64,000 nt of DNA from Chromatiales bacterium (GCA_026989455.1 JALSJH010000009.1:1-64000), one strand, 5' to 3'; shown: positions 20,233-60,356, numbered from the stretch's first letter. Made by a program: numbers and translations. The notes: a model not told the origin generated them from the letters alone.

Positions 20233-21951
20233 TTAATCCTTGGTTACGCGGTTGATTTCTTCAAGGCTGGTGAGACCCTGCAAAACTTTTTTCAAGCCGG
20301 ACTCTCTGAGGTCAGAAATCTTTTCGACTTTGGCCTGGTCAGCAATTTGGATGGCGTTTCCCCCCTCCATTATGATGCGACCGATCTGATCTGAAATGGG
20401 CATTACCTGGTAGATACCCACGCGGCCCTTGTAGCCGTCACTACAGTGATCACAGCCCACCTGTTTATAGATGGTAATCTCTTTGGTTTGTACTTTGCTG
20501 ACCTGCTCAGTTGTAAAGCCTTCATCCAGTAAGGTTTCAGAAGGAATGTCGGCCGGTTGTTTGCATTTTTCGCAAATACGCCGTGCTAGGCGTTGGGCAA
20601 TAATGAGTGTAACAGCTGAAGCAATATTGAAGGGTGCGATGCCCATATTCATCATGCGCGAGAGTGTTTGCGGGGCATCATTGGTATGCAGGGTGGAGAG
20701 TACCAAGTGACCCGTTTGAGCCGCTTTGATGGCGATTCCGGCGGTTTCGAGGTCTCGTATTTCACCTACCATAATTACATCGGGATCCTGACGCAAAAAA
20801 GCCCTGAGAGCCACCGAAAAGGTGAGTCCTACTTTTTCATGAACATTAACTTGGTTGATGCCATAGAGGTTGATTTCAGCCGGGTCTTCAGCGGTGGAGA
20901 TATTACGGTCTTCGGTATTTAAGATATTGAGGCCGGTATAGAGAGAGACGGTTTTACCACTGCCGGTGGGGCCAGTGACCAGAATCATGCCATAAGGCTT
21001 GGCCAGAGCATCCAGATAGAGTTGCTTTTGATCCGGCTCATAGCCGAGGGCTTCGATGCCGAGGCTGGCGCTGCTCGGGTCGAGGATCCGCATCACAATT
21101 TTTTCACCAAACAGTGTCGGGCAGGTGTTAACACGAAAGTCGATGGCGCGGTTTTTAGAGAGCTTCATTTTAATCCGGCCATCCTGCGGAATACGTCGCT
21201 CGGAGACATCCAGTGAGGCCATCACTTTTATTCGGGCCGAGACCCGTCCCGCCAGCGCGATGGGTGGTTGAGCCAGCTCATGCAGCATACCGTCGATGCG
21301 TAGACGAACGCGGAACTGCTTTTCATAGGGTTCAAAGTGAATATCTGAAGCGCCCTTATTGATGGCATCAAGCAGCACTTTGTGAACAAAACGCACCACC
21401 GGGGCATCATCAATATCGACATCGGTACTGGTATCGGCTTCCTCATCGCCAGAGCTGATATCGAGATTATCAAGGTCGCTATCACCAAAATCGGCCAGCG
21501 AGGTATCGGAGGCTTCGAGCATCTCATCGATACGCTGCTGCAACTTGTCATCTTCAACCAGGATCGACTCAATGGCCAGTCCGGTATTGAATTTTATCTC
21601 ATCGATCGCCTGGGTATCGGTTGGGTCGGAGACGGCAACAAAGAGGTAGTTGCCGCGCTTGCTGATGGGCAGGCCACGGTGCTGGCTAATTAACTTAGGA
21701 TCAACCAGCTTAATGATATCAATATTGATATCAACCTCGTTGATATCCAACAATGGCATACCAAACTCATTCGATGCTAGCTGAGCTAGGTTTAAGCTGG
21801 AGACGATGTTTTCCATGGCAAGATGGTTTACCAGTGTCCGTTTCGCTTCCTGCGCATCGTGTTGCGCTTTTTGCGCAGCGGCTTCGTCAATCAGGCCGTC
21901 CAGTACAAGCCGGCGCGCCAAGCCGCTAAGTCTTATTTGTTTGCTGCTCAT
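20233..21951 (-). CDS. pilB: Type IV pilus extension ATPase PilB
   Basis: Hexameric ATPase (572 aa) powering pilus extension. Residues 1-150 form the MshEN/GspE N-terminal domain, which in some relatives binds c-di-GMP. The ATPase domain has Walker A GPTGSGKTVS, Walker B-like VIMVGEIRDLETA and the His box region TGHLVLSTLHTND. A four-cysteine zinc site (CEKC, CDHC) is present near residue 465. ATG 21951 (MSSKQIRLSG) is preferred over GTG 21957. Repeat B copy 1 lies 34 bases upstream, so any promoter may be in or beyond it. Confidence 0.96.
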   Translation of the reverse strand: MSSKQIRLSGLARRLVLDGLIDEAAAQKAQHDAQEAKRTLVNHLAMENIVSSLNLAQLASNEFGMPLLDINEVDINIDIIKLVDPKLISQHRGLPISKRGNYLFVAVSDPTDTQAIDEIKFNTGLAIESILVEDDKLQQRIDEMLEASDTSLADFGDSDLDNLDISSGDEEADTSTDVDIDDAPVVRFVHKVLLDAINKGASDIHFEPYEKQFRVRLRIDGMLHELAQPPIALAGRVSARIKVMASLDVSERRIPQDGRIKMKLSKNRAIDFRVNTCPTLFGEKIVMRILDPSSASLGIEALGYEPDQKQLYLDALAKPYGMILVTGPTGSGKTVSLYTGLNILNTEDRNISTAEDPAEINLYGINQVNVHEKVGLTFSVALRAFLRQDPDVIMVGEIRDLETAGIAIKAAQTGHLVLSTLHTNDAPQTLSRMMNMGIAPFNIASAVTLIIAQRLARRICEKCKQPADIPSETLLDEGFTTEQVSKVQTKEITIYKQVGCDHCSDGYKGRVGIYQVMPISDQIGRIIMEGGNAIQIADQAKVEKISDLRESGLKKVLQGLTSLEEINRVTKD

Positions 21952-21984
21952 ATACACTTCTATGTGAGGTTTTAAATGATAGTT

Positions 21985-22128
21985 TGTAACGACTCGGCGT
22001 ATTCATCTTTTACTTCAACTCGTCGTCGTTCTCGTACTTAGTCAGCCACATATCTTTATGTGCCTTCACTTTTATTGTACGAAAACGTATCAATTTGAAG
22101 GAAAATATAAACATGCTGAATGGGTACG
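21985..22128. repeat. Repeat family B (MITE-like), copy 1
   Basis: Starts GTAACGACTCGGCGTATTCA and ends AAACATGCTGAATGGGTACG. It is related to the copies at 27502-27622 and 60188-60325, and is the most diverged of the three. It lies between pilB and the glycan block. The remaining bases to 22274 hold nothing I recognise. Confidence 0.75.
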
Positions 22129-22274: not shown

Positions 22275-23207
22275 TTAACCTACATTTTTCTCTGCTCTGT
22301 TTCGGGAGCAAATAATAACCGTGGCGGCACTTAGAAGTGAGACCAGCAGTGCGACCCCACGGGCGGTGAGTGCGGCGGCAACACCCGCTTCAAAATTTCC
22401 GTGTAGCAGCGAGGTGAAGAAGCCACTGAGCAGTTCTGATACCCCCATATTTCCAGGGATTATATTAATCACCAGCGAGATAAACTTGAGTGATGTGTAG
22501 AGCATTATAAGCTCGGCACTTACGGGGACATTGAATGTTGTAAAAAGAATCGCAAACAACAGTGCGTTGCTCATAAGAATGGCAAGATTAATGAGTGAGC
22601 TTGAAGCTAACAGGCGGCGGTTGCGAGCTAACCGAAAAAAAGCAGTGGCTAATGATTTGAGCCATGGCTGGGTTACGCTTGTAATAAGGTGGTGCTGAAA
22701 GTGCCAAACTAAGGTCAGCAGGATTGGCAGTATCAGGAGTATGCCGAGCGGGTAGGCTAGGTAGTCAGAGTTTTGTTTATAAAGATAAACAGAGAGCGCA
22801 ATCAGTGCAACCAGCGTGAAACAGCTGAGGCGGATGATAAGCTGAAACCCGGCAATGGCAACGGTGTCGCTGTAGTCGATATTATGTTGTTTTTTGAGAT
22901 AGAGGCTTTTGAGTGCAGTGCCCCCCTGTGCAGGGAGTAGCATGTTGGCGGTGCTGCTAAGAATGCCCACGGGAAGCCAGGTTCGCCATGATAGCTGTGT
23001 GCCAAGGCAGGAGAGCATGAGCGGTAGCAATACCGTCTGCAAGCCGAGCTGAATGACGGTGAGCAGGAGCAGTGCGGCAATGGTTGATGCGGGCAGCTCG
23101 ATAACCGGTTGGAAGAGTTCACGAATACTCCAAGCGTAGCCGAGGATCACTAGCCACAGCACGATACTGACTATCTTTGTTGCGGCTGGTGTGAGAGAAA
23201 ACGTCAT
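22275..23207 (-). CDS. Flippase-like integral membrane protein (UPF0104/LPG synthase TM family)
   Basis: A 310-residue protein with about eight membrane segments, matching the AglD/UPF0104 family also found as the transmembrane half of lysylphosphatidylglycerol synthase. Typical features are LLPAQGGTALKSLYLKKQ in a loop and NIIPGNMGVSEL near the end. Members lie in glycolipid and polysaccharide loci and may move or bind lipid-linked sugars, but no reaction is established for this type. It is the last gene of the minus-strand glycan block. Confidence 0.8.
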   Translation of the reverse strand: MTFSLTPAATKIVSIVLWLVILGYAWSIRELFQPVIELPASTIAALLLLTVIQLGLQTVLLPLMLSCLGTQLSWRTWLPVGILSSTANMLLPAQGGTALKSLYLKKQHNIDYSDTVAIAGFQLIIRLSCFTLVALIALSVYLYKQNSDYLAYPLGILLILPILLTLVWHFQHHLITSVTQPWLKSLATAFFRLARNRRLLASSSLINLAILMSNALLFAILFTTFNVPVSAELIMLYTSLKFISLVINIIPGNMGVSELLSGFFTSLLHGNFEAGVAAALTARGVALLVSLLSAATVIICSRNRAEKNVG

Positions 23208-23223
23208 CTTTTTTAAGGAGCCC

Positions 23224-24348
23224 CTAATCCAGGTGGTTCAGCGATTTGAAATGCGCTGTTAAAGATTCCATTTGAGTTAAATAGTAGCTGAACGCCTGCT
23301 GTTTTTGGTCAAGAATCGCCTGGGAGTGTGCCGCAATATCCATATTTTCAAGCCACTTTATGGCACACGCCTCTCCCTCGCTGTTATCAACTGGAAGTTG
23401 ATTCAAGGTTGACATTCTCAGACCGTGCCATAGTTGAAATGTAGGCAGTCCAAGGGAGCAGGCGGCGACGCAGCCATGCAGTCGGGTGGAGAGTATGGCA
23501 TCAAACTGCTGGTATGTTTCAAGGAGTGATTCACCACTGCTGATGATGTTTATTTTTGTGCGGGAGGCCACTGTTTTTAAATATTCAGCATCTCTTTTTG
23601 AGTGGCAAATTAGCTCGACATTTGTAAAGTGTTGCTGAACTTTGTGAAAAGTATTTATCGCATATTCGAAGCCCGACCTATCCATACGAATCAGGTTGCT
23701 ATGGGGAGCCTGCAGCGTGATGCCAATTTTATTAAGCGAGTGGCGTGGTGTTGTTTGGTCGGAGCAGAAGAAGGCAGGGCAGGGAGCCTGTTGGGGTTGA
23801 TAGAGGGTAAAGCAGCTTGCAGTCTGCGGGTCTCGCACGATAAAAAGTTCGGTGAGTTCGCGCAGTATCTGGTCAATTTTGTGTGTGGCAACCGGGGGTT
23901 TGGAGCTACCCACGCCCAAAAATGCGCAGTGAATACGCTGTTTGAGAATATGGCGTAGTAGCGGATCATTGCTGCGGTCGGTTTGTCGCAGTCGTAGTAT
24001 TCGGGCAAAAAAACGGCCGCTATAGGGGCCTTTTAACAGATCACCTAAGCTTGGGAATTCTGAGCACCACTCAGGTGTGCCTGCAAAAATAACGTAGTCA
24101 AGCGCTTGCTTTTGATTGTCGCTCAGGGCATCTATGCGCTGCTGTTTATGGATGGGGTTGCGGTCGTAGATTCTCTTCTGATAATGGATGCCAGCAGCAG
24201 CCAGCAGGCGCTCGATACCCATCAGAATCACCTCATCTCCGGGATTAAATCCTTGTGTGGTTGAAAATAGAATAGTGGGCAATTTAGGCATGGGGTGGTT
24301 GTGGTCATTCGAGTTAAGATTGTTTGCTTTGCGCAGAGAAGTAGACAT
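23224..24348 (-). CDS. Polysaccharide pyruvyl transferase family protein
   Basis: A 374-residue enzyme candidate that would add a pyruvate ketal from phosphoenolpyruvate to a sugar, or a relative with another acceptor. It opens LPTILFSTTQGFNPGDEVILMG, the N-terminal glycine-rich family motif, and has the conserved ILSTRLHGCVAACSLGLPTF with the STRLHG signature. Two starts are possible. ATG 24348 has a strong GGGAGAGG upstream and overlaps the end of the FkbM gene by 35 bases; ATG 24291 (MPKLPT) removes 19 poorly conserved residues. The track's 24546 start lies deep in the neighbouring gene and is rejected. Confidence 0.75.
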   Translation of the reverse strand: MSTSLRKANNLNSNDHNHPMPKLPTILFSTTQGFNPGDEVILMGIERLLAAAGIHYQKRIYDRNPIHKQQRIDALSDNQKQALDYVIFAGTPEWCSEFPSLGDLLKGPYSGRFFARILRLRQTDRSNDPLLRHILKQRIHCAFLGVGSSKPPVATHKIDQILRELTELFIVRDPQTASCFTLYQPQQAPCPAFFCSDQTTPRHSLNKIGITLQAPHSNLIRMDRSGFEYAINTFHKVQQHFTNVELICHSKRDAEYLKTVASRTKINIISSGESLLETYQQFDAILSTRLHGCVAACSLGLPTFQLWHGLRMSTLNQLPVDNSEGEACAIKWLENMDIAAHSQAILDQKQQAFSYYLTQMESLTAHFKSLNHLD

Positions 24349-25261
24349 TGGCACCCTCTCCCACATCGTTAGCGAAGTGGCCGCTGCATCGCTTGCTGCC
24401 ATCACTCTCAATGATATGGTAATGGTAACCGAAATCCTTGAGTAAAGCCCAAAGTTGTTCTGGTGAGTAGTCGAAACGTGCTGTCCAGAGTGGGTTAACC
24501 TCGAGTAGCAGCTCTGGTTGGTGTGATTTAAGCAGCTTGTTGGCACCTTTTAACACTAACATCTCCGCGCCCTCTACATCGCACTTAATAAGATTAATTG
24601 AGGTGATGCCATGGCGCTCTATATATTGATCGAGGGTAGTGGCCTCTACGGGGGTTCCTTTTGCGGGCGAACGACCATGGGGCCGAATGATGTGGTTGAG
24701 TGGATGCCCCAGTTGCTGGGTGCTGAATATCTCGCTGCCACAGTGGTCACTCACCACCTGTTGGTTTAGCTTGATTTGTGATTTGAACTGATTACGCTCA
24801 ATATTTTTGTCTATATTACGATAGGCGAAGTCGCCCGGCTCAAAAGCGTGGATGCTGATGTCGGAATAGCGATGGGCGGCTTGCAGTGAGAACCAACCAA
24901 TATTGGCGCCAATATCAATGAAGGTGCTGTTGTTGTTGAGTTGTTCGAGCAGTCGTTGGGTGATTTCGGGTTCATACTCACCACGGTAGATGCAAGGCTC
25001 AACCCCGGCTCCGGGGATTTCAGTGATATATCGTATCTCCAGCCCATTGGGCAGGGTCACCCACGCCTCTCCCGCCTCGAAAATGACTTTTTTGAGTGTA
25101 TGTTTTTGGCCGATATTGCACCCCTGCTTCATCCACTCAGTGAGGTCAAATTGCTGGCTTCTTTCAGGGTCAAACAGGGCGGCATAGAGCCTTCGCAGCG
25201 GCGTGAACTGTTTTAGCCTGTTTGCCAGCGCGTGGCGTAATGATTTAAATCTATATTTCAT
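24314..25261 (-). CDS. FkbM family methyltransferase
   Basis: SAM-dependent methyltransferase (315 aa), probably O-methylating a sugar or lipid-linked glycan. The SAM-binding motif is TFIDIGANIGWFSLQAAHRY (residues about 115-135), followed by IHAFEPGDFAYRNIDKNI. The family's later motif is INLIKCDVEGAEMLVLKGA. The N-terminal 60 residues are basic and less conserved. It is three bases after the GT9 gene in a tightly packed operon. The acceptor is unknown. Confidence 0.85.
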   Translation of the reverse strand: MKYRFKSLRHALANRLKQFTPLRRLYAALFDPERSQQFDLTEWMKQGCNIGQKHTLKKVIFEAGEAWVTLPNGLEIRYITEIPGAGVEPCIYRGEYEPEITQRLLEQLNNNSTFIDIGANIGWFSLQAAHRYSDISIHAFEPGDFAYRNIDKNIERNQFKSQIKLNQQVVSDHCGSEIFSTQQLGHPLNHIIRPHGRSPAKGTPVEATTLDQYIERHGITSINLIKCDVEGAEMLVLKGANKLLKSHQPELLLEVNPLWTARFDYSPEQLWALLKDFGYHYHIIESDGSKRCSGHFANDVGEGANVYFSAQSKQS

Positions 25262-25264
25262 CGG

Positions 25265-26323
25265 TTATTCAGTATTTTTCAGCGGTGGAAGGCGATTATA
25301 GACCTGTTGAGGGGTAATGTGCTTGAGGCACTCTCTATCGGGGCAGCGTATGGCTTTCTCTGGGTTCATCTGGTTATCGAAGCAGGGACGGCAGGGCAGC
25401 TCACTCTCCAGCACCATAGCACCGTTGAGTGCCGGGCCGGTGAGTGCGGCAGAGGTAGGCCCATAGAGAGCGAGCGTGGGAACCTTCATGACAGCTGATA
25501 AATTGGCAATACCGCTGTCATTGCCCACCACGGCGTGTGCTTGAGAGATGAGAGCCAGTGCATCGAGCATTGAGGTTTTATCCACTAGGTTTATAACACT
25601 CTCTTGTTGGGATATACGGCGGACAATCTTTTGCGCTTGCGCTTGGTCATCACCGCCACCACCGAGTATGACCCATTGAAAGTCGGCCCCTAAATTGACC
25701 AGTTCGGCGTAGTGGCTGGCAGGCCAAAATCGCCACGCTGCATTTCGCCCACCCCCCACACCCAGCACAATGTAGGGGCGGGTAATCTTATGCTGTTGCA
25801 GTAAGCGGGTGACATCATCCATTTTATGGCTGGGCATAAAGGGGGGAGAGGCGAGTAGTTGATATTGTGGCTCAGGGGCATAGCGCTGGTGTAGGGTGAG
25901 GCGGCTCTGCTCGTCACCGGCATCAACGGGTCTATTGATGGCTGATTTTTGCAGCCAGTTGGTTTGTGTGTGAATACCCACTCTCTGGTGGCAGCTAGAC
26001 AAGCGGGCGAGGAGCAGCATATCAGGTTGATTAGATAAAAAACTGATCACGACGGCTTGATAATGCCCTTCTCTGACCGCTTGAAGGCGCTTTAGCCAGC
26101 GAAACAGGTAGCGGATGAGGCCAAAGCCTCGAAACTGGCGCTCTAAATAGTGAATATCCCCAATCAGTTCGTTGTGTGAAAGTAGCTCATTGCCTGCGTT
26201 GGGGTAGGGGATGATCAGGTCAACTTTCTCTGCATCGTATTTAGCCAGCAGTGCTTTTAACGAGGGATAGATAAAGCACCAGTCGCCAATACCCGAAGGG
26301 CCAAGATAGAGGATTTTTTTCAT
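25265..26323 (-). CDS. Glycosyltransferase family 9 (heptosyltransferase-like)
   Basis: GT-B glycosyltransferase (352 aa) of the LPS heptosyltransferase family. N-terminal motif: MKKILYLGPSGIGDWCFIYP; nucleotide-sugar binding motif near residue 265: AVVGNDSGIANLSAVMKVPT, then LYGPTS. The C-terminal CRPC/C-rich segment (PCRPCFDNQ, RCPDRECL) is typical of the family. It could transfer heptose or another sugar onto a surface glycan. ATG 26323 overlaps the upstream gene's stop by four bases (ATGA); the track's 26383 start is internal to that gene. Confidence 0.85.
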   Translation of the reverse strand: MKKILYLGPSGIGDWCFIYPSLKALLAKYDAEKVDLIIPYPNAGNELLSHNELIGDIHYLERQFRGFGLIRYLFRWLKRLQAVREGHYQAVVISFLSNQPDMLLLARLSSCHQRVGIHTQTNWLQKSAINRPVDAGDEQSRLTLHQRYAPEPQYQLLASPPFMPSHKMDDVTRLLQQHKITRPYIVLGVGGGRNAAWRFWPASHYAELVNLGADFQWVILGGGGDDQAQAQKIVRRISQQESVINLVDKTSMLDALALISQAHAVVGNDSGIANLSAVMKVPTLALYGPTSAALTGPALNGAMVLESELPCRPCFDNQMNPEKAIRCPDRECLKHITPQQVYNRLPPLKNTE

Positions 26324-27501
26324 GAAAGCAGTTGCTTGCAGTACTGCTGGCTGGCCAGTGCCCGCGCCATCCAGCCATTGCACCAGCGCAATAGCGTGAA
26401 GCGTTTGGTGAAGTGCTTGGTCTGCTGATAATAGAAGCGCCCCTCGGGGTGGTACATATTGTCCAGGGTCCAGCGGGTGATCTTTTCTGCCAAACCTGGG
26501 TACTCTTTTTCGTGGCGCGCAAAGGTGAGGATGCCTTGGGCGGCACCGTGAATGTCGTGGGGGAAATCCACATCGTGCATCCAGCGGGGGGAGCCGTCCG
26601 GATTGAAGAGTTTCTCGGCGTAGAATGTCAGGCCATTATCATAGCTTCTCTGCCACTGATAATCGTTTGTCGCATCCATGTAGCGCTGCAGAGCGTCGAG
26701 GATGAAGCCGGTGTGGTAGTTGTCGTGGCTGATGCGTGAATCGCTGGGTGGGTCGGTGTACCACCAGGCGTGATAATCGGTCTGTTGGTTGATCACATAG
26801 CGCACTAGGCGTTCAGCGGTTTGTAGGTGTTCACTTTGGTTGCTAAGGGCGCTGTATTGGGCGATGACGGTGCCGATCAAAATGCTGACATCCATAACCC
26901 GCATACTCATGGGCATCGGCATGTACCCAAGGCAGAGTTCATCGGCTTGATCTTTGAGAGGGGTCAGGTCATTGAGTAGAAACTGAATGGTGCTGGCAAC
27001 GACCTCCAGGTAGTGAGGGTTTTGGCTGCATCGATACCCCTCTAAAAACGCCTCGCAGACAAAACAGCTGACCACGGCATTGGGGGTGTTGGTGGGGGCG
27101 TAAAAGCCCGGGTCTTGCCACGGATAATGGTAGCCCCAACAGCTGCCTGACCAGTTGCCGGGTGAGCGGTTCTGCTCTATCAGTGTCAGCAGTTGTTCAG
27201 CTTCAGCACGGTGTTGTGGGTTGTTTGAGATCCGATATCGATCAAACAAGCCCATGGCAAAGAGTGCCAGCCCCTTGGGGTTATATACTTTGGGGTTAAG
27301 CAGTAGAGGCCGCAGGTTGATCGGCGAGCGCATCACCCCTTGAATGGCGACCAAACGAGGCCATTTTGACCAGCCAAGGGTGGCTTTGAGTAGTGGACTG
27401 TTGAGTCCGTCATGCTTGTTGTAGCCACGCCACGCTTGCTGGCGGCTATAGTCATAGAGCTGGTCGAGTACCGTCTCTATCTCTCTATTATCAATCGGCA
27501 T
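26320..27501 (-). CDS. Predicted alpha/alpha-toroid protein of glycan locus, function unknown
   Basis: A 393-residue protein without signal peptide or membrane helices. Repeated helical pairs rich in W, Y and H (for example NWSGSCWGYHYPWQDPGF, YHAWWYTDPPSDSRISHDNYH, PRWMHDVDFPHDIHGAAQG) suggest an alpha/alpha-barrel fold as in glycoside hydrolases, epimerases or terpene cyclases. I cannot assign an activity. Related proteins in polysaccharide clusters are often mis-annotated. Its ATG abuts repeat B copy 2, so its leader is entirely repeat sequence and no Shine-Dalgarno is evident (GAGTCGTTACG precedes ATG). It overlaps GT9 by four bases. Confidence 0.6.
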   Translation of the reverse strand: MPIDNREIETVLDQLYDYSRQQAWRGYNKHDGLNSPLLKATLGWSKWPRLVAIQGVMRSPINLRPLLLNPKVYNPKGLALFAMGLFDRYRISNNPQHRAEAEQLLTLIEQNRSPGNWSGSCWGYHYPWQDPGFYAPTNTPNAVVSCFVCEAFLEGYRCSQNPHYLEVVASTIQFLLNDLTPLKDQADELCLGYMPMPMSMRVMDVSILIGTVIAQYSALSNQSEHLQTAERLVRYVINQQTDYHAWWYTDPPSDSRISHDNYHTGFILDALQRYMDATNDYQWQRSYDNGLTFYAEKLFNPDGSPRWMHDVDFPHDIHGAAQGILTFARHEKEYPGLAEKITRWTLDNMYHPEGRFYYQQTKHFTKRFTLLRWCNGWMARALASQQYCKQLLS

Positions 27502-27622
27502 CGTAACGACTCAGCGTATTCATCTTTTGCCCCAACTCTTGGTTGTTTTTGTACTCAATCGGTCACCTAGCGTGCGAAAATGCCTCGATTTGAGGCGAAA
27601 TCTAAACACGCTAACAGTTACG
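27502..27622. repeat. Repeat family B (MITE-like), copy 2
   Basis: Ends CGTAACGACTCAGCGTATT and AACACGCTAACAGTTACG, which are imperfect inverted repeats of each other with CGTAAC at both tips. The outer bases provide the asnB stop codon (TAA at 27618-27620 on the minus strand) and abut the ATG of the next gene. The whole asnB-toroid intergenic space is this element. Confidence 0.85.
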
Positions 27623-29474
27623 TTGTTTTATCTTCAAACTGCATCATCCACATATGGGTCAATAACATAAGGTAAAGCATGAAATAATGCCAGCGTAGTC
27701 CGGTGCGCGGCGGCTGCTTTTGTACCCAATCGATAAAGGTGTAGTTAAACAGTCCATGCCGCTCGGTGATCTCCCGGCTTAACCAGCGGTTGGCAAGTGG
27801 CTTGAGCTGCTGATGAAAGAAGTGTGGTGAGTCCAGTTGGAAGCCGCTCTTAGGGCGGTGCAGAATTTCAGCGGGTAGCAGCCCTTTTACGACCTGGCGC
27901 AGATACCCTTTGGCTCCTCCTCTCATGAGTTGTTCGAGGCTGAATTGCTGCATGTGGGCAATCAAGGGCGCATCTACAAATGGCGTGCGTACCTCAAGCC
28001 CCACCGCCATGCTGACACGATCCTCCTGCCAGAGTAGATCATTGACCATTTTGTTGTGCAGCTCAAATTTCGCCATTGAGGCGATAGGCGATTCTGTTTT
28101 GGGCCAGCGCTGTTCAAGCTGTTCAAAGCTGTTTTCGAGTGGTTGATCTAACATCCTCGGGCCGTAGATCCGCTGGCGCATGGTGGGGTCATCCCACACA
28201 TTGCGCAGCAGGCCGTAGAGCTGCGGCCAATTGCCCAGCTGTTGTAGCATCTGCATCGCCCTTTGCGGCTCACTCCACGGGGTGCGTTGCAGGGTGTTTA
28301 TCAAGCGGTTGCCCATCGCACCCAACGGGCGGCTGGCCAGCCTGGGAAGCCAGCGGCTGAGGCTTTGGCACTGGCTAAATATTTTATGGGCATTGTAGCC
28401 GAGAAACAGCTCATCGCCGCCTAAACCTGAAAGCACCACCTTAACCTCTTTGCTGGCCAGTTGCGCCAGCTGACTCACTTGCAGGGCGTTGACCTTCGGT
28501 GTCTCCAGGTGCCAGACCAGATTCAGCAGCTGTTGCTCCAGGTTGCCGCCAATTTCAGCTTGTTGATTCTGAATGCCTAATAGTCGAGCTGTGCTGGCGG
28601 CATTGATCGCTTCGTTTGGATCATCACCCACCGCAAGGGTAAAGCTGCGTAGCGGCTGTTGCTGTACGGCAATGGCGGCGATAGTGGCTGAATCAATGCC
28701 ACCAGAGAGGTAACAGGCCACCTCTACATCGGATGTGAGGTGTTGCTCTACGCTGTTACGCAGCTGTGAAAGGGTGTCGCTGGTGGGGGTTGTGGGCGTT
28801 GTGGTGGCAGGAATCAAGTGCTGTTGCAACGGGCGGCTGGGCTGCCAACTCAATACGCTGCCCGCTGCTAGTTGTGATACCCCTTCAAACAGGCTTAGCT
28901 CTCCGGGTAGGTAACGGAAATTCATAAGCTGGTGCAGCGCATTATGGTTGAGTTGGCTCTGTTGTGGCTGGCAAGCGGGCAGTGCCTTGGCTTCTGAGGC
29001 GAAGTAGAGCTGATCACCTTGGTGTTGAATAAACAGTGGTTTGATACCTTGCGGGTCACGCACCAGAAAACCCTGTTTGAGCTGGTTGTCCCACAGGGCG
29101 AAACTATACATGCCGCGTAACTGTGCAAACCCCTGCCACCCTTTTGCACGATAGAGTTCGAGAATCACCTCAGTATCGGAGTGGTGTTGAAAGGTGTGGC
29201 CTTGTGCCGTTAGGGTTTTGCGTAGTGTTTGATAGTTGTAGATTTCACCGTTAAAGCTGATGCAGTAGCGCCCATCATGGCTTGGCATTGGTTGTTGGCC
29301 GCCATCGGGGTCGATAATGGCCAGGCGACAGTGGCCGAGCGCGGCGTGGTCAAACAGTACTGCCCCCTCACCATCTGGGCCTCGATGGCGCAGGGTGTGT
29401 ACCATCGATTTCAGTGCGGCCACTGTATTGGCGTGGATCGGGGCAGCGGAAAACCAGCCGGCAATGCCACACAT
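27618..29474 (-). CDS. asnB: Asparagine synthase (glutamine-hydrolysing), glycan-locus type
   Basis: Amidotransferase of 618 aa. The class II glutaminase domain starts MCGIAGWFSA with catalytic Cys2, followed by HRGPDGEGA, LAIIDPDGGQQPM and SFNGEIYN. The synthetase domain has the pyrophosphate loop YLSGGIDSATIAA and LSGLGGDELFLGYN. Members in polysaccharide loci may amidate sugar acids rather than make free asparagine; the position suggests, but does not prove, such a role. Its last codons and stop come from repeat B copy 2, so the C-terminus may be shortened or altered. One base separates it from the DUF354 gene. Confidence 0.9.
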   Translation of the reverse strand: MCGIAGWFSAAPIHANTVAALKSMVHTLRHRGPDGEGAVLFDHAALGHCRLAIIDPDGGQQPMPSHDGRYCISFNGEIYNYQTLRKTLTAQGHTFQHHSDTEVILELYRAKGWQGFAQLRGMYSFALWDNQLKQGFLVRDPQGIKPLFIQHQGDQLYFASEAKALPACQPQQSQLNHNALHQLMNFRYLPGELSLFEGVSQLAAGSVLSWQPSRPLQQHLIPATTTPTTPTSDTLSQLRNSVEQHLTSDVEVACYLSGGIDSATIAAIAVQQQPLRSFTLAVGDDPNEAINAASTARLLGIQNQQAEIGGNLEQQLLNLVWHLETPKVNALQVSQLAQLASKEVKVVLSGLGGDELFLGYNAHKIFSQCQSLSRWLPRLASRPLGAMGNRLINTLQRTPWSEPQRAMQMLQQLGNWPQLYGLLRNVWDDPTMRQRIYGPRMLDQPLENSFEQLEQRWPKTESPIASMAKFELHNKMVNDLLWQEDRVSMAVGLEVRTPFVDAPLIAHMQQFSLEQLMRGGAKGYLRQVVKGLLPAEILHRPKSGFQLDSPHFFHQQLKPLANRWLSREITERHGLFNYTFIDWVQKQPPRTGLRWHYFMLYLMLLTHMWMMQFEDKTT

Positions 29475-29475
29475 G

Positions 29476-30540
29476 TTACGGCTCCAACGTGGATTGGTAG
29501 TGTTGCAGGGGGGCCGGAAAGGTGGTGATGCAGTGCGTTACAAACTGAGCAACATCGATGGTTTCATCCAGTAGTTGCTGGCGGGCTTGTTGCCAGTGGC
29601 TTTTAGGGTGGGCTAACAGCTCATCAATACACGTTTCAAGAGCAGGCCACTCAATAGTGTGCAGGTTTTTGACCAGACCAAATCGGTGCTCTTGTTGTGT
29701 GGTGTAGCCGCGCCCGGTCTCTGCGGCATAAATAGCCGGTACCCCCAGTACCGCACACTCCGAGGCCATGGTTGCGCTCTCGCCAATAAACAGCGTGCTG
29801 AAAGCCATCACATGGTGCACTTGGTTGATATCACCCTGATAACGGAGTGGCTCCATTGCCGGGCTGAGCGGTGCTTCAGAGGAGATTAACACCTTGCCAA
29901 GGGGGGTAAGTTTATTGATCAACTTTTCCAGTAGTACCTCACTCCAACCATTTTCACCCACGTCATGATTGGCCTGCCAGGAGACCAGACGCAGAAAGAA
30001 GGTGTTACCTTGATTGCTCAGGCCGTTTGCAATGGCCACTTCACGCTCAGCGGTGAAGTGATTGGGGTGTAGATAGCTGAGTTCATGATAGCCGTGATAG
30101 CGAATATGGCGACGCTTGGGCAGCCAGGCGTGGTAGCAATCGGGCACGATCACCGCAGAGGCGAGCGGGTAGGTGATGGCGTTTTGCAGGGTGGCATTCT
30201 CTGTGTCATAAAAGACCAGTGACGGCACGCCGGTCAGCTTGCCCACATGGGCGATAAAAACCCCGCCAATCGCCGCCATCACATCAGGGCGGCTCTTCTT
30301 TACCACCTTTAATAGTGCCAGATCCCGACAGACCAACTCCTTGCCCAGCGAAAAGAGTCCGCCCTTACCTAAGGCGGAGAGCGGGTGGTGCTCCAGCCCC
30401 ATGCCATCCAGCAGTTCCAGTGCGCACTCTTTATCGCGGCTGGTGATGATGATCTCATGCCCTGCGGCTTGCAACAGCTGGATTGGCCGCTGAAAGAAGT
30501 GAACATGAGCGGGGTGGCCAATATCAATTAACACCCTCAT
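29476..30540 (-). CDS. DUF354 family protein (GT-B-like)
   Basis: A 354-residue protein of the DUF354 family, predicted to have the GT-B fold of UDP-sugar transferases and epimerases. It begins MRVLIDIGHPAHVHFFQRPI, which is the family hallmark, followed by SRDKECALELLD and DVMAAIGGVFIAHVGKLTGVPSLVFYDTE. The C-terminal nucleotide-binding region includes FIGESATMASECAVLGVPAIY. The donor and acceptor are unknown. It overlaps the GT2 gene by four bases (ATGA) and precedes asnB by one base. Confidence 0.83.
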   Translation of the reverse strand: MRVLIDIGHPAHVHFFQRPIQLLQAAGHEIIITSRDKECALELLDGMGLEHHPLSALGKGGLFSLGKELVCRDLALLKVVKKSRPDVMAAIGGVFIAHVGKLTGVPSLVFYDTENATLQNAITYPLASAVIVPDCYHAWLPKRRHIRYHGYHELSYLHPNHFTAEREVAIANGLSNQGNTFFLRLVSWQANHDVGENGWSEVLLEKLINKLTPLGKVLISSEAPLSPAMEPLRYQGDINQVHHVMAFSTLFIGESATMASECAVLGVPAIYAAETGRGYTTQQEHRFGLVKNLHTIEWPALETCIDELLAHPKSHWQQARQQLLDETIDVAQFVTHCITTFPAPLQHYQSTLEP

Positions 30541-31391
30541 TTGCGGTTTTTATCCTGATAGAGCAGTGCGGTGATCTGCTCAGAAATCAGCCCGATCAGA
30601 AAAATAATCACCGCACTACTCAGCAGCATGGCGCTCATATTGGTAAAGCGACCTTCGGTGAAAAAAGTGTAAGCGTAATAACTTAAACCAATCGCGCCGT
30701 GCAGCAGGCTAATGGGAATAAACAGTTTGAGTGGCGAGTAGAGGGTGCCTACCTTGAAAATGATTAATAGAAAACGTACCCCGTCGCGCCAGATGTTAAT
30801 GTGGCTTTTGCCCTTGCGTTGTTGCACCTCAATCGGCAGATAGGCCACCGCATAACCGGCACGAAAGAAAGCCATGGTGCTGGTGGTGGGGTATGAGAAG
30901 CCGTTGGGTAGTAGATGCAGAAACTCACGAAACTTATCGGCGCGTACCGCACGAAAGCCGGAGGTGAGATCTTTTATGGTGTGCCCGGTCATCCAACTGG
31001 CCAGTTTGTTATAGGTGGTATTCGCCAGCAACCGGGCAAGCCCCGCCTGCCCTTTGCGGTCACGGGCACCCACCACCATATCGTAGCCCTGATCCAGCTT
31101 ATCCAATAGTGGCTGAATCTCTTCAGGCTGGTGCTGCCCGTCGGCATCCATAAACAGCAAAATATTCCCCGAGGCAGCGCGTGCGCCAGATTTTATGGCG
31201 GCACCATTGCCCATGGCGTAGGGGTGGCTGATGCACTTGACGTTGTTGTCAGCACAAATTTCTGTGGTGTTGTCGGTTGAGCCGTCATTGACAATGATAA
31301 TTTCAGCATCAGGCTGGGTTTTCAGGAGTAGCGGAAGAAGGTGTTGTAGCGAGGTGGCTTCATTTTTGGCGGGGATCACAATGCTGATCAT
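30537..31391 (-). CDS. Glycosyltransferase family 2 with two C-terminal membrane helices
   Basis: A 284-residue GT-A enzyme like polyprenyl-phosphate sugar transferases (DPM1/GtrB-like). The catalytic domain begins ISIVIPAKNEATSLQHLLP. The DxD motif is LLFMDADGQHQPEE, and later VVGARDRKG, SGFRAVRADKFREF. Two hydrophobic segments near residues 215-270 (LFIPISLLHGAIGLSYYAY, AMLLSSAVIIFLIGLIS) anchor it. It probably starts a glycan by making a lipid-linked sugar or extends a chain. First gene of the glycan operon on the minus strand. Confidence 0.85.
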   Translation of the reverse strand: MISIVIPAKNEATSLQHLLPLLLKTQPDAEIIIVNDGSTDNTTEICADNNVKCISHPYAMGNGAAIKSGARAASGNILLFMDADGQHQPEEIQPLLDKLDQGYDMVVGARDRKGQAGLARLLANTTYNKLASWMTGHTIKDLTSGFRAVRADKFREFLHLLPNGFSYPTTSTMAFFRAGYAVAYLPIEVQQRKGKSHINIWRDGVRFLLIIFKVGTLYSPLKLFIPISLLHGAIGLSYYAYTFFTEGRFTNMSAMLLSSAVIIFLIGLISEQITALLYQDKNRK

Positions 31392-31482: not shown

Positions 31483-31514
31483 TAAAAAAGCCCCGCTCAG
31501 CTGAGCGGGGCTTC
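31483..31514 (-). terminator. Intrinsic terminator of pilA
   Basis: AGCCCCGCTCAG/CTGAGCGGGGCT is a perfect 12-bp stem at 31489-31512. On the minus strand it is followed by TTTTTATTATT. It lies just after the pilA stop and insulates the glycan block from pilA transcription. Confidence 0.9.
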
Positions 31515-31538: not shown

Positions 31539-31976
31539 TTATAAGTTGTTCTTCTCTATATCTCTAAGTGCCGCAGGATTGGTGACGGTTGTGGTGTTGC
31601 GCCAGGTAATGCTGCTGGCACCGACCGTGGGGGTGAATGTGATGGTTAGCCCATCAACACCCGCGCCAATGCCTGTTTCCAGCGTCGCTACGATGACTCC
31701 ATCTGCTACAGTAGCGCCGGCGACCTCTGTGGTTGGGGTAAAGTCAGGAATGTTGACAGTGCCGGTATCGCAAGTATCCGGTACTCCACCCGCTTCCTGG
31801 ATGCAAACAGAAACTGCAGTTTTAAGGCTGCCCACAGAACTCATGGCGTTACCAACTTTCGCTTTGATGGTGTAGTCCGAATAGGCAGGAATGGCTACGG
31901 CGGCCAGTATGCCGATGATCGCGACGACGATCATGAGTTCGATGAGGGTGAAGCCTTGTTGTTTTTTTATGATCAT
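31539..31976 (-). CDS. pilA: Major type IV pilin PilA
   Basis: Type IVa prepilin (145 aa). The short basic leader MIIKKQQG is cut by PilD before F in [29 protein letters not shown]-type sequence ([15 protein letters not shown]), with the conserved Glu5 of the mature protein. Two cysteines (CIQEAGG and DTC) could form a disulfide, closer together than in Pseudomonas PilA, where the pair bounds a C-terminal loop. It is monocistronic: a sigma-54 promoter motif lies upstream and a terminator follows. The neighbouring pilSR pair supports this identity rather than a minor pilin. Confidence 0.9.
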
Positions 31977-32092: not shown

Positions 32093-32108
32093 TGCATTCA
32101 GTGTGCCA
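32093..32108 (-). promoter_or_regulatory. Sigma-54 promoter of pilA
   Basis: On the minus strand TGGCAC-ACTGA-ATGCA matches TGGCAC-N5-TTGCW with GG and GC in correct register. It lies about 117 bases before the pilA ATG. PilS and PilR are encoded next door; PilR is a sigma-54 activator. The remaining bases from 32109 to 32313 hold no gene and could carry PilR sites, which I cannot delimit. Confidence 0.8.
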
Positions 32109-32313: not shown

Positions 32314-33696
32314 TTATTCCATGTCGAGTTTTTTCAGGCGATAGCGCAGGGCGCGGAAGGTGATGCCGAGTAGTTCGGCGGCTTTGGTTTTGTTGTGGCG
32401 GGTTTTTTCCAGTGCTTTTTGTATCAGCTCTCGCTCGATGGACTCCAGGTGCTCTTCCAACAGAATGTTGTCATTGGCTGCCGTCGCGGTGACGGCCTGT
32501 TGCGGTGGTGGAGTGGTCTCTGTGGCGGTCTCGAGTGGGCTCGATCTCTCAGCTTGTTGCGGTAGTTGCAGGTCACTGAGAATGATCTCCTCTCCTTCGC
32601 AGAGGGTGAGGGCGCGTTCAAGAATGTTTTCCAGTTCGCGGACGTTGCCGGGAAAGTGATATTGATAGAGTGCTTGCTTCGCTTGTTCAGTGAGTTGTGG
32701 CGGAGCGATCTCTATCTGTTGGGCCAATTTTTTGATGATGTGCTCTGCCAGTTGTGGAATATCCTGTTGACGCTCACGCAGCGGAGGAACCCGCAACTCA
32801 ATCACATTGAGCCGATAGAAGAGATCTTGGCGAAACTTTCCGGCCTCTACCAGTTGGGCGAGATCTTTGTGGGTGGCGCAGAGAATGCGTACATCGGTGG
32901 ATAGCTCTTTGTCACCCCCTACGGGGCGTACCGCCTTTTCCTGAATGGCTCGCAGCAGTTTTACCTGCATGTGAAACGGCAGGTCGGCAACCTCATCTAA
33001 AAAGAGTGTGCCGCCATCGGCAGAGAGGAAAAGCCCCTGTTTGTCGGCAATAGCGCCGGTGAAGCTGCCCTTTTTGTGGCCAAAAAATTCACTCTCCATC
33101 AGCTCGCCGGGTATTGCGCCACAGTTGACGGGGATGAAGGGGCCTTCGCTGCGAGGCCCCTTGTCGTGTATGAGTCGGGCCACCAGCTCCTTGCCGGTGC
33201 CTGATTCACCGCTAACATAAACCGGCGCCTGGCTGCGCGAGAGTTTGGCAATCATCGAGCGAGTGGTGCGCATGACGCTTGACTCGCCGAGCAGGGTATC
33301 TCGCGAGCGCCGATCTTTATCCGAGGTATTATTCAGTTTGAGTGCTGATTTGACCAGGTTGCGCAAAATGGGTAGTTCAATCGGCTTTGATACAAAGTCG
33401 AACGCACCGTATTTAAGTGCTTGTACTGCCGACTCGACGTTGCCGTGAGCGGTGATTACCGCACACGGCATCTCCGGGGCTTTCAGTTGCAGGTGCTCTA
33501 CTAGGCTGAGTCCATTGCCATCGGGTAGCCGCATATCGGTGAGGCAGATATGGAATTTATGTTTTTGTAGCAGGTTGTAAGCCTCTTTGAGTGTGGCGGC
33601 GGTGAAGGATTCGATGCCCATGCGCCCTAGGGTCAGCATCATCAGTTCACGAATGTCGGGTTCATCATCAACAATTAAGGCTAGGTGGTTGCTCAT
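32314..33696 (-). CDS. pilR: Type IV pilus sigma-54 response regulator PilR
   Basis: NtrC-family activator (460 aa) controlling pilA with sigma-54. The receiver domain has the phospho-acceptor in CLTDMRLPDGNG. The AAA+ domain has Walker A GESGTGKE, the sigma-54 loop in the form GSFTGA (HKKGSFTGAIADKQG, a pattern I recall from PilR rather than the usual GAFTGA), and Walker B LFLDEVADLP. The C-terminal helix-turn-helix ends NKTKAAELLGITFRALRYRL. The ATGA overlap with pilS indicates coupling. The pilA sigma-54 promoter lies directly downstream. Confidence 0.93.
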   Translation of the reverse strand: MSNHLALIVDDEPDIRELMMLTLGRMGIESFTAATLKEAYNLLQKHKFHICLTDMRLPDGNGLSLVEHLQLKAPEMPCAVITAHGNVESAVQALKYGAFDFVSKPIELPILRNLVKSALKLNNTSDKDRRSRDTLLGESSVMRTTRSMIAKLSRSQAPVYVSGESGTGKELVARLIHDKGPRSEGPFIPVNCGAIPGELMESEFFGHKKGSFTGAIADKQGLFLSADGGTLFLDEVADLPFHMQVKLLRAIQEKAVRPVGGDKELSTDVRILCATHKDLAQLVEAGKFRQDLFYRLNVIELRVPPLRERQQDIPQLAEHIIKKLAQQIEIAPPQLTEQAKQALYQYHFPGNVRELENILERALTLCEGEEIILSDLQLPQQAERSSPLETATETTPPPQQAVTATAANDNILLEEHLESIERELIQKALEKTRHNKTKAAELLGITFRALRYRLKKLDME

Positions 33697-35291
33697 AGTC
33701 TCTGCTGTGTGGTGTCCAGGTTGCTGAAGGTGATTCGGAAGCGAGCGCCGCTGTTACTCTTTATATAGTCTAGCGTTGCATGATTGCATTCGCATAATTC
33801 TCTCGCAATGTAGAGGCCGAGTCCAGTGCCGCTGTTTTCTGTGGTGTAGAAGGGTTCGAAGATGTGTTCTGCATCCGCTGGGCTAATGCCGGGGCCATGG
33901 TCCTCTATATCGAGATAGGGGCGCTGGTGGGCGGGTGATATGCCATAGTGCAGCTCTACTTTAGGAGCCTTGGGGTAGTTACGGCTGTGGTGTATGGCGT
34001 TATTGCAGAGGTTGGAGACGATCTGGTAGAGGTGGGTTGGATCCACGGCGATGGTTTCACTGCTGTTGATGTGGATTGCAATATCGTTGGTGTCGATTTG
34101 GTTGCTGCTGGTGAGCTCGTCTAAAAAGCTTGCGAGCCACTCATTCATGGCGATGGTGGTTGGCTTGAACTCTTCACGTCGGCTCAGCTGTAAAATGCTC
34201 TCAATGATGGTGTTCATGCGGTTGGAGTGGTTGCTGATGATTTCGATCAGACGCTTATCCTCTTGCTCCAACGCCGGGGACTCATCCAGCAGCTGGGCGG
34301 CGTGGCTGATGGCCCCCAGCGGGTTGCGGATTTCATGGGCAATGCTGGCAGTTAGCTGGCCAAGGGAGGCGAGCTTAAGGTGTTGGACCCGCTGGGAGAG
34401 GGCGGAGCTGTCTTCTAGGAAAATAATGGTGCCGTGTTCTACTTGGCTGCCCAACAGCTTGAAGTGGGCGCTTATTTCCGTGCTGTTTTGTGCTGTTTTG
34501 AAAGGGCTGTCGGGCTGCTGCTTTGTCTCTGCCCAGTGCTGGTAGTGATGCTGTAACGAATCGGATAGCTGGTTGAGTTGGCTGCTTTTGTTCGGCTGCC
34601 CCAAGAGTTGCAAGGCGGTTTGATTGATCAGGCGGACCTGTTGGTTGTTGTCGATCACCAGAACACCCGACTGTAATAGCTGCATGACATGTTGATTCAG
34701 CTGCGCGAGATTGGCCAGATCGATGCCTCGCTGTTCGGCCAGCTGTTCGCTCTCTTTTAATCGGCGGTTAAGGGCGGCGCTGAGTAGGGCCACCGCAAAA
34801 AAAGTAGCGCCCAGTAGGCCAGCTTGTGTGTAGTTGACACTGATTTGGTCAATCAGCTGGCTGTAGCTTCGCTCCCCTAGAAGAGCCAGCGTGGCGAAGG
34901 AGGCGATAAAGGTGGCACCCCGTTCAGGCAGTAGTAGCGCGGTGCCGATAATGGTTATGATGAGCAGTATTTCAAGAGAACCCTCGCCACTGTTAAGGGC
35001 GTGAGTCAGTGTGGTGATGGCGATGATGTCGATGATGGCATAAAGATAGACCTGGGTGCCAAAGCGGGGCCACTGTTTGTGAATGGCGATTGAGCTGGCC
35101 ACCGAAAAGAGTAGGAACAGCAGGCTGGCATTTTGGAAGAGCGCTGAGTGCGTTGTCTGCAGGGTGCTATTTGCGGTGGGAAGTAGCGTTAATCCGAAAA
35201 GTGTTGTTGCCAGTATGATGCGGAAGATGTTGAACAGGCGCAGGGTGCGCCAGCGATCTGTTTGCGATGGCGCTATTGCCGGGTGAGGCAC
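33693..35291 (-). CDS. pilS: Type IV pilus sensor histidine kinase PilS
   Basis: Membrane kinase (532 aa) that controls PilR. The first 190 residues carry about six hydrophobic segments, then a PAS-like domain (residues about 200-305, VLVIDNNQQVRLINQTALQLLG). H-box: IAHEIRNPLGAISHAAQLL; N-box NLCNNAIHHS; G-box SGTGLGLYIAREL. GTG 35291 is the start, overlapping the ispB stop by one base (TAGTG). Translation is therefore probably coupled to ispB, an unusual link between pilus signalling and isoprenoid synthesis. Confidence 0.9.
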   Translation of the reverse strand: MPHPAIAPSQTDRWRTLRLFNIFRIILATTLFGLTLLPTANSTLQTTHSALFQNASLLFLLFSVASSIAIHKQWPRFGTQVYLYAIIDIIAITTLTHALNSGEGSLEILLIITIIGTALLLPERGATFIASFATLALLGERSYSQLIDQISVNYTQAGLLGATFFAVALLSAALNRRLKESEQLAEQRGIDLANLAQLNQHVMQLLQSGVLVIDNNQQVRLINQTALQLLGQPNKSSQLNQLSDSLQHHYQHWAETKQQPDSPFKTAQNSTEISAHFKLLGSQVEHGTIIFLEDSSALSQRVQHLKLASLGQLTASIAHEIRNPLGAISHAAQLLDESPALEQEDKRLIEIISNHSNRMNTIIESILQLSRREEFKPTTIAMNEWLASFLDELTSSNQIDTNDIAIHINSSETIAVDPTHLYQIVSNLCNNAIHHSRNYPKAPKVELHYGISPAHQRPYLDIEDHGPGISPADAEHIFEPFYTTENSGTGLGLYIARELCECNHATLDYIKSNSGARFRITFSNLDTTQQRL

Positions 35292-45558: not shown

Positions 45559-46033
45559 GTGGTTGTGGCTAACGGCACTGATTTTTACGCTGGATCTGGC
45601 GACTAAGTTTTGGGTCTCCAGCACTCTGTCGCTTTATGAGGTGATTCCGGTGACCTCCTTTTTCAATATCGTACTGGCACACAATAGTGGCGCCGCTTTT
45701 AGTTTTTTGGCCGATGCCGGTGGCTGGCAACGCTGGTTTTTTACCGCTATTGCGCTGCTGGTCAGTGTGGTGATTGTGGTGTGGCTTAAACGCCTTCCGG
45801 TTAATGAAAAGCTTCAGGCGGTCGGACTGGCATCTATACTCGGTGGTGCGCTGGGCAATGTCTTTGATCGGATTGCACACGGCTACGTGGTGGATTTCCT
45901 CGATTTTCACTATAAAAGCTACCACTGGCCCGCCTTTAATGTGGCCGACATGGCGATTATGATGGGTGCCGCTCTACTTATTTGGCACACTATTTTTTGT
46001 TCGCAGGAAGTTGGAAAGTCTGAGGTTAAATGA
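45551..46033 (+). CDS. lspA: Lipoprotein signal peptidase LspA
   Basis: Inner-membrane aspartyl protease (160 aa) that cuts prolipoprotein signal peptides. Four membrane segments; catalytic aspartates in [20 protein letters not shown] and [12 protein letters not shown] 45551 is inside the end of ileS; the track's 45464 start reads into ileS and is rejected. In relatives the order is lspA-fkpB-ispH; here fkpB is not found. Confidence 0.95.
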
Positions 46034-46046
46034 TTTATTAGCTTCC

Positions 46047-46212
46047 CTAGGAGCCTGTCCGAGAATAGAAGATCTACTACGGAAAAGCCCTTTTGGCTCA
46101 TTTCTACGCTCATTTTCGTTAAATATGAACAACTATTTGCCTTAAATGACGAAAAAATGGACTCAAAATGGCTTTCCCTCGCTACGACCCCTATTCTCGG
46201 ACAAGCTCCTAG
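46047..46212. repeat. Repeat family C (MITE-like), full copy
   Basis: A 166-bp element bounded by CTAGGAGCCTGTCCGAGAATAG and its inverse, CTATTCTCGGACAAGCTCCTAG (21 of 22 match). The interior encodes no protein of note. It lies 13 bases after lspA and before the toxin-antitoxin module. A 48-bp deletion derivative occurs at 18073-18120. I find no transposase in this window. Confidence 0.88.
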
Positions 46213-46302
46213 ACAGGGGCAATGAAGTTCGAACTGTACGATGAAATGTTAGCTGAACGTGGCCAATAAGATTGTATTTTTTTTGAAATTAAAGAGGACA
46301 CT

Positions 46303-46548
46303 ATGAAAATTAAAGCCAGTTCCATTCCGATAGAGTTATTGAATCGTATCAAAAATCCAGACCCGATCGCAGGTGAAGATATTTTGATTGAAAATGATGA
46401 CGGGTCATTATTAGGTGTTATTTTGCAGCCAAAGGCATATGAGTTCTTTCTTGAGAAAATTGAAGAGAGAGAAGATGCGTTGGATAGTTCATTAAATGAG
46501 CCTTACGATAAAAACTCCAAAACTTTAGATGACCTGTTAGGAGAATAA
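46303..46548 (+). CDS. Predicted antitoxin of a RelE/ParE-type module
   Basis: An 81-residue, acidic protein with an N-terminal segment (MKIKASSIPIELLNRIKNPD, GEDILIENDDGSLLGVILQPKAYEFFLEK) that looks like Phd/YefM-type antitoxins, and a C-terminal tail EPYDKNSKTLDDLLGE typical of toxin-binding tails. A strong AGAGGA Shine-Dalgarno precedes it. It is followed within four bases by a second small ORF and then the toxin. The region is visibly AT-rich compared with lspA and ispH, suggesting acquisition. Confidence 0.7.
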   Translation: MKIKASSIPIELLNRIKNPDPIAGEDILIENDDGSLLGVILQPKAYEFFLEKIEEREDALDSSLNEPYDKNSKTLDDLLGE

Positions 46549-46551
46549 AAT

Positions 46552-46698
46552 ATGAATGGCCATGAAAATCAAAAAGAGACAGAGGAAGAAAAAGAAAAAA
46601 GAATGAACCAGGAAGCGACAATGGAGAAGTTGAAAACGCCTAACCATAACATCAAACAACTAAAAACATTGGAAGAGCTTTTAAGGGAGAAGCGTTGA
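46552..46698 (+). CDS. 48-residue ORF inside toxin-antitoxin module
   Basis: Not in the ORF track because of its length. ATG to TGA, 48 residues, very charged: ETEEEKEKR then a tail KQLKTLEELLREKR. A strong TAGGAGA Shine-Dalgarno lies eight bases upstream, and its TGA overlaps the toxin ATG (TGATG). The tail resembles that of the preceding antitoxin (KTLDDLLGE), so it may be a second toxin-binding peptide or an antitoxin fragment. Function unknown. Confidence 0.55.
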   Translation: MNGHENQKETEEEKEKRMNQEATMEKLKTPNHNIKQLKTLEELLREKR

Positions 46699-46952: not shown

Positions 46953-47055
46953 CCATTTACACCGGTTTTTTTGTGAAATTCACATGTTGAATTAATATCT
47001 TACAAGATATTTTCGCGTATTTATGAGCTATCTGAGTTAATTTGAGTAACAAACA

Positions 47056-48619: not shown

Positions 48620-48633
48620 GCCAGACCCCGGGT

Positions 48634-60325: not shown

Positions 60326-60356
60326 AGCAAAATAATTAATAGAGAGGGCCGAGTTG

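Follow-up and report, generated by a model that had tools for sequence, protein, structure and literature searches.

The window analysed here is a 64,000-nucleotide stretch of a Chromatiales bacterium genome (GCA_026989455.1, JALSJH010000009.1:1-64000), and the subject of this text is a block of glycan genes at 22275-31391, between pilA and pilBCD. The original prediction, made from the sequence alone, had described eight minus-strand glycan open reading frames at this place; all eight were present as claimed, and Pfam assigned them to LPG_synthase_TM, PS_pyruv_trans, FkbM methyltransferase, GT9, AsnB, DUF354 and GT2 (GT, glycosyltransferase), with no family for the toroid. Many gammaproteobacteria have a set of genes for building sugars between the pilin and the pilus-motor genes, and the block is one form of this set. 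With a probability of about 0.62, we read the interval between pilA and pilB as a conserved address for pilin glycosylation and the block as the cargo found there; it probably makes a sugar chain and attaches it to the pilus fibre.

The genes, all on the minus strand, are transcribed in the order GT2, DUF354, AsnB, toroid, GT9, FkbM methyltransferase, pyruvyltransferase and LPG_synthase_TM. The GT2 (30537-31391; PF00535) starts 147 bp downstream of pilA and is a predicted polyprenyl-phosphate sugar synthase. Hydropathy showed two C-terminal membrane segments, and its NCBIfam matches AglJ (the best), PgfS and PpgS were all below cutoff. It is followed by the DUF354 protein (29476-30540; PF04007), a predicted GT-B-type glycan enzyme, and by an AsnB-like glutamine amidotransferase (27618-29474; PF00733/PF13537; TIGR01536, 390.7 bits) with the N-terminus MCGIAGW, in which Cys2 is retained. 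The (alpha/alpha)6-toroid protein (26320-27501) had no Pfam or NCBIfam family. Next come the GT9 heptosyltransferase-like glycosyltransferase (25265-26323; PF01075; start shifted inward from 26383), the FkbM-family methyltransferase (24314-25261; PF05050, TIGR01444), the polysaccharide pyruvyl transferase (23224-24291; PF04230; start shifted inward from 24546) and an LPG_synthase_TM/TIGR00374-like membrane protein (22275-23207; PF03706, 75.7 bits; TIGR00374 below cutoff). The predicted tight packing held: given the GT9 and pyruvyltransferase starts at ~26323 and ~24291, six of the seven junctions overlap or are shorter than 25 bp, and the only loose one (116 bp) lies between the AsnB and toroid genes.

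The block is flanked on one side by pilA (31539-31976, minus strand; PF00114 and N_methyl), which encodes the major type IV pilin and proposed acceptor, followed by pilR (32314-33696) and pilS (33693-35291), both on the minus strand and assigned by position and by their recurring order in relatives. On the other side lies pilB (20233-21957, minus strand; TIGR02538, 851.3 bits). Between pilA and GT2 we observed an intrinsic terminator, GCCCCGCTCAGCTGAGCGGGGC followed by a T-run (31490-31511, minus strand). In a scan allowing stems into the T-tract it was strong and in the same place in all three genus members (the window genome G000, and G001 and G002). A terminator was also present in 19 of 40 pilin/GT-C gaps of relatives, compared with 1 of 800 shuffles. 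We propose that it attenuates read-through into the block; in pilin-accessory cassettes of Pseudomonas a terminator after the pilin gene tunes accessory expression (PMC11841053). Upstream of pilA, a sigma-54-like promoter with two consensus mismatches (TGGCACACTGAATGCA; 32093-32108, minus strand) lies 117 bp from the gene and beside pilR; the pattern was not enriched in the window, and its support is positional. No Rfam match to a structured RNA was found across 17-37 kb of the window.

The block in relatives and the dispersed repeat

In both other sampled members of the genus, G001 and G002, this site held all eight genes in an identical arrangement, with protein identities of 70-92%. All eight genes were found in this order, with one GT-C gene in addition, in a distant metagenome-assembled genome (MAG; L100) whose PilB is 57% identical to that of the window. 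The order in L100 was pilS-pilR-pilA-GT-C-GT2-DUF354-AsnB-toroid-GT9-FkbM-pyruvyltransferase-flippase-pilB-pilC-pilD, and its GT9, FkbM, pyruvyltransferase and flippase proteins were 42%, 36%, 45% and 26% identical to those of the window, respectively. Many further MAGs of gammaproteobacteria had the core GT2-DUF354-AsnB-toroid at pilA, at pilB or at both, and in relatives the DUF354 gene lay nearly always immediately upstream of AsnB. G003, the only sampled genome of another genus in the family (86% complete), showed no toroid gene. Horizontal transfer of the core cassette is hinted at by sequence comparison; the toroid protein was more conserved than PilB in L096 and L100 (64-73% vs 57-61% identity), and the reverse was seen in L058 (56% vs 66%). 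PilA was only 66-71% identical among the genus members, and PilB 88-96%, which suggests fast PilA diversification.

These comparisons bear on the claim that the block had been inserted, which did not survive. That a genomic island recently entered between pilBCD and pilA, bounded by the repeat called repeat B, is highly improbable, as the same block stands in every sampled genus member and in L100. The comparison of gene order and base composition with relatives that had been proposed gave the same block in genus mates and an ordinary GC content (~0.47-0.56, equal to that of the window), so that neither the atypical composition nor the absence from close relatives that define a genomic island was found. 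The expectation that pilA may directly adjoin pilB was correct for L060, L072, L080 and L083, which favours insertion, but this arrangement is just one of several states of the interval. Presence of the same block throughout the class had been named as a finding that would speak against insertion; the address and GT2 are indeed widespread, whereas the remaining cargo varies.

As predicted, repeat B occurs both next to pilB and within the block (79% identity over 67 bp), but it does not mark the limits of the block. A 67-bp query gave about 39 matches in the 2.37-Mb genome, and the repeat is a dispersed miniature inverted-repeat transposable element (MITE) of ~140-150 bp (~146 bp at full length, 26 copies aligned). 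Its terminal inverted repeats are GTAACTAYTCAGCG and CGCTGAGTAGTTAC, with GTAAC ends, and its target duplications of 8 bp are perfect where readable (CTCAATTC flanking the copy in L018, CACATTTT in L008). The copy between AsnB and toroid (27503-27621, minus strand, 119 bp) has an empty site in G001 and G002, and the copy upstream of pilB (21986-22127, minus strand, ~142 bp) has an empty site in G002. Because the matching sites are empty in genus mates, the MITE copies are later arrivals and not insertion edges. A recent insertion bounded by repeat B was rejected on these empty sites together with the syntenic block in relatives.

The copy at 27503-27621 provides the AsnB stop codon with its end and pushes apart the AsnB and toroid genes, whose stop and start overlap in G001 and G002, where this junction holds no MITE. 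In G001 a copy of its own separates the pyruvyltransferase gene from the flippase gene, a third copy in the window lies at approximately 60188-60330, and the MITE has been active since the species split. The GTAA ends and 8-bp duplications, which we take to be IS66-like, hinted at an IS66 origin; no IS66 transposase was found in the genome, and the MITE has no driver of this kind there. Elsewhere in the window, the GC content falls to 0.366 at 46001-47000 (0.46-0.57 in the rest), and two pilin-like genes (48167-48577 and 51232-51621) lie in a second, minor-pilin-like region at 48167-56000.

Class-wide linkage, the GT-C/TPR gene and the toroid protein

Linkage was analysed in 276 gammaproteobacterial genomes with completeness of at least 90%, with GT2 counted at E<=1e-60 and GT-C at E<=1e-40. 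GT2 was present in 73 genomes, GT-C in 76 and both in 71, compared with ~20 expected under independence; by genus, the counts were 61/215 for GT2 and 63/215 for GT-C. Forty GT2 loci were fetched regardless of pilin presence, and 29 of them held pilin, GT-C and GT2 in this order on one strand. Another three held a pilin, and three of the other eight were truncated by the contig end less than 3 kb upstream of GT2. A 200-kb control gave one pilin motif. Of the block genes, GT2 has the tightest class-wide link to pilA. The distance from GT2 to pilB varies from 0.5 to ~13 kb, and the interval is filled mainly with glycosyltransferases, methyltransferases, LPG_synthase_TM and Wzx-like proteins; among 40 cargo proteins from other loci, 3 belonged to the LPG_synthase_TM family. 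The pilA-pilB gap is one address with exchangeable glycan cargo. In one genome (G037; L073 and L045), in-frame stops were observed in GT2, GT-C and PilB, which suggests joint decay of pili and glycosylation.

Relatives share the order pilS-pilR-pilA-[GT-C/TPR membrane glycosyltransferase]-GT2-[variable glycan genes]-pilB, where TPR stands for tetratricopeptide repeat. Their pilA-GT2 gap is ~2.3 kb and encodes a GT-C/TPR protein of ~650 residues, compared with 147 bp in the window. This protein crosses the membrane many times and ends in a TPR-like tail, for which the TPR match was clear in L068 and weak in others. Its invariant motifs are DD, which follows the first membrane segment, RP, KE and EHR.Y, and none of the Pfam and NCBIfam glycosyltransferase models matched it. 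Tandem GT-C copies beside the pilin gene were seen in L067, L125, L126 and L153.

The window genome holds exactly one GT-C homologue, on another contig (L122 6771-9808, contig C1), and its start overlaps a UDP-glucose 6-dehydrogenase gene. The same pair was found in G002, and in G001 the GT-C gene stands alone elsewhere in the genome. A tree of 69 sequences placed the GT-C proteins of the genus with the copies of L057, L064 and L115 (support 0.98); the L057 copy, from the same family, is next to pilB, that of L064 has pilA on one side and pilB on the other, and that of L115 follows a pilin gene. The GT-C gene of the genus lies away from pilA and its product is only ~23-30% identical to the cis-encoded ones, so that its pairing with the block is a proposal. 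The short pilA-GT2 gaps of G000, G001 and G002 (147 bp to ~0.5 kb, no GT-C remnant recognised) and the trans GT-C neighbourhood, which differs between G000/G002 and G001, could also mean that the system is decaying or uncoupled in the genus: the cis GT-C lost, the trans GT-C serving another acceptor, and the lipid-linked glycan made without transfer to pilin. We consider this quite improbable, as three species have kept all eight genes intact and well conserved, along with a single GT-C each, and as the genus GT-C groups in its clade with copies linked to pilin or pilB. What we observed directly is which genes are present and in what order, their conservation and co-occurrence, and the GT-C in trans.

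The guess that one of the eight proteins is an alpha/alpha-toroid was right. An AlphaFold2 model built with 27 sequences reached a predicted local distance difference test (pLDDT) score of 93.5, compared with 66.5 for four sequences, and the top Foldseek matches were (alpha/alpha)6 sugar epimerases and glycoside hydrolase family 76 (GH76). Similarity to cellobiose/glucose 2-epimerases and GH76 was at a TM-score of ~0.63 with ~12% identity, and no sequence match was found in Pfam, NCBIfam or PDB chains. Membership in the AGE/cellobiose 2-epimerase or GH76 families was rejected, as the likeness is in fold alone. As modelled, the protein falls within the (alpha/alpha)6 fold as an orphan. It has many invariant polar residues (e.g., KHD, WGYxYPW, DNYHT and DxHG), and from fold and neighbours our guess is that it may act on or epimerise a glycan intermediate.

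When 84,980 species genomes were scanned with the toroid protein, 27 loci were obtained. AsnB lay beside it in 20 of the 22 loci outside the Planctomycetota-Verrucomicrobiota-Chlamydiota (PVC) group, and most of these had GT2 and pilA or pilB on the locus. Five PVC-group loci (L116-L120) held diverged toroid-AsnB pairs (38-41%) with no type IV pilus context; these copies make the AsnB-toroid pair look like a glycan module of general use that was recruited at pilA.

Proposed pilin glycosylation and its meaning

The best-supported model is a three-component-like system, with GT2 as predicted donor synthase, the LPG_synthase_TM protein as candidate flippase for a lipid-linked glycan and the GT-C acting in trans. 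In this model, the pilA transcript would read weakly through the terminator into the block, and GT2 would load a sugar onto undecaprenyl phosphate. DUF354 and GT9 would extend the lipid-linked sugar, and the AsnB-like enzyme, the toroid protein, FkbM and the pyruvyltransferase would decorate it. The LPG_synthase_TM protein would then flip the glycan to the periplasm, and the GT-C/TPR transferase would couple it to PilA, either ahead of pilus assembly or in its course. The additional glycosyltransferases and modifying enzymes imply an oligosaccharide, and an amidated uronic acid is suggested by AsnB-family amidotransferases and the UDP-glucuronate supply nearby; the DUF354-AsnB-toroid product is probably an amidated uronic-acid glycan or oligosaccharide. 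The individual enzyme activities, the nature of the sugar and the role of PilA as acceptor are all inferred, the last from linkage and GT-C clade membership. The earlier suggestion that the block may modify the pilin gained from the linkage of GT2 and GT-C to pilA and from the absence of the canonical O-antigen genes tested, while its acceptor stays a proposal.

In the 99%-complete genome we found no Wzx (PF01943), no Wzy_C (PF04932) above cut-off and no PglL-type enzyme above cut-off. The absence of Wzx and Wzy_C weighs against a Wzx/Wzy/WaaL O-antigen role and against a PglL or TfpO transferase. PglL-, PglS-, TfpO- and WaaL-type transferases were rejected, the single weak Wzy_C match being an RND efflux pump.

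Several points weigh against pilin glycosylation here. In this organism it is a prediction from genes, GT-C is not beside pilA in the genus and has the low identity to cis-encoded copies given above, and that DUF354 and GT9 share one lipid-linked glycan is a supposition. The GT9, FkbM and pyruvyltransferase families are common in lipopolysaccharide (LPS) and exopolysaccharide (EPS) loci, where AsnB is typical as well, and the PVC-group genomes hold AsnB-toroid pairs with no pilus genes. Together with the position of GT-C outside the locus, these families and pairs would also fit a block that makes or decorates a surface polysaccharide (LPS core or EPS), with pilA adjacency due to co-regulation or chance. 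We regard this as unlikely, since pilin, GT-C and GT2 are coupled class-wide and the genome has neither Wzx nor a Wzy_C ligase/polymerase above cut-off, ABC-transporter-dependent export not having been searched for.

Among known systems, the Pseudomonas pilA-tfpO and pilA-tfpW cassettes (PMC11841053, PMC12369383) similarly have a glycosyltransferase gene downstream of pilA behind an intrinsic terminator, and different pilin-accessory cassettes occupy one address there, as here. TfpW is a GT-C arabinosyltransferase acting on pilin in Pseudomonas (PMC11841053), to which our GT-C is likened by description and not by sequence. Unlike in these cassettes, the GT-C here has a TPR tail and is paired with GT2 in relatives, a multi-gene glycan pathway fills the pilA-pilB gap, and in the genus of the window the GT-C is encoded in trans.

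Systems of GT2, flippase and GT-C are established for O-antigen side chains (PMC11127046). The GtrA/GtrB/Gtr and polyprenyl-phosphate-ribose/GT136 systems have the parts proposed here, namely a GT2 polyprenyl-phosphate sugar synthase, a flippase and a GT-C; the GT2 here is a predicted synthase with two C-terminal membrane segments, and the GT-C linked to it has an invariant DD as the acidic motif of the first extracytoplasmic loop. The acceptors known from that paper are O-antigen backbones, whereas pilin is proposed here; the predicted flippase is an LPG_synthase_TM protein, and extra glycosyltransferases suggest an oligosaccharide. The TMTC1-4 O-mannosyltransferases (PMC7801869) have a membrane GT-C part followed by TPRs, much as our GT-C has a TPR-like tail. 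The GT-C motifs DD, RP, KE and EHR.Y resemble TMTC motifs M1, M2, M4 and M7 (DD, YRP, KE(T/Q) and ERxxY, respectively), with EHR.Y in place of ERxxY. The organisms and acceptor differ, the likeness is only architectural and motif-level, and none of five GT-C proteins matched Pfam TMTC_DUF1736 at E<=0.1.

The TPR-containing cyanobacterial glycosyltransferase Ogt (Synpcc7942_0051) often adjoins pilA, like the GT-C of relatives, and is reported to affect PilA glycosylation (PMC12288463, PMC9260433). It is annotated with an O-GlcNAc transferase domain, unlike GT-C, and the two are likened by description only. The Haloferax AglJ/AglD N-glycosylation system is also comparable, as AglJ was the best, though sub-cutoff, NCBIfam match of GT2. 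AglD carries an LPG_synthase_TM-like region. The Haloferax system is archaeal and dolichol-based, and the block here has no AglB-like oligosaccharyltransferase.

Pilin-accessory glycosylation is already known. In a literature search that covered few subscription papers and preprints, no account turned up of a gammaproteobacterial locus joining GT-C/TPR and GT2 to pilA, or of this pair with multi-gene cargo in the pilA-pilB gap; we claim no priority. Tentatively, at somewhat less than even odds, the GT-C/TPR protein resembling eukaryotic TMTC, together with an undecaprenyl-phosphate sugar synthase, may form an apparently undescribed class of pilin O-glycosyltransferase that is widespread in gammaproteobacteria and attaches lineage-specific oligosaccharides to PilA, with the pilA-pilB gap as an exchangeable slot.

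If the pilin-glycosylation reading is right, about one quarter of the sampled gammaproteobacterial genomes would have a glycosylation locus linked to pilin and built to a single plan, and from the genes in the pilA-pilB gap one could predict which glycan coats the pili. Pilus glycans of Pseudomonas are reported to block pilus-specific phages (PMC11841053), and the variable cargo may therefore record phage pressure. The toroid protein would stand for an orphan family of enzymes whose pathway context is clear, and the GT-C/GT2 pair a concrete candidate for a new glycoengineering transferase.

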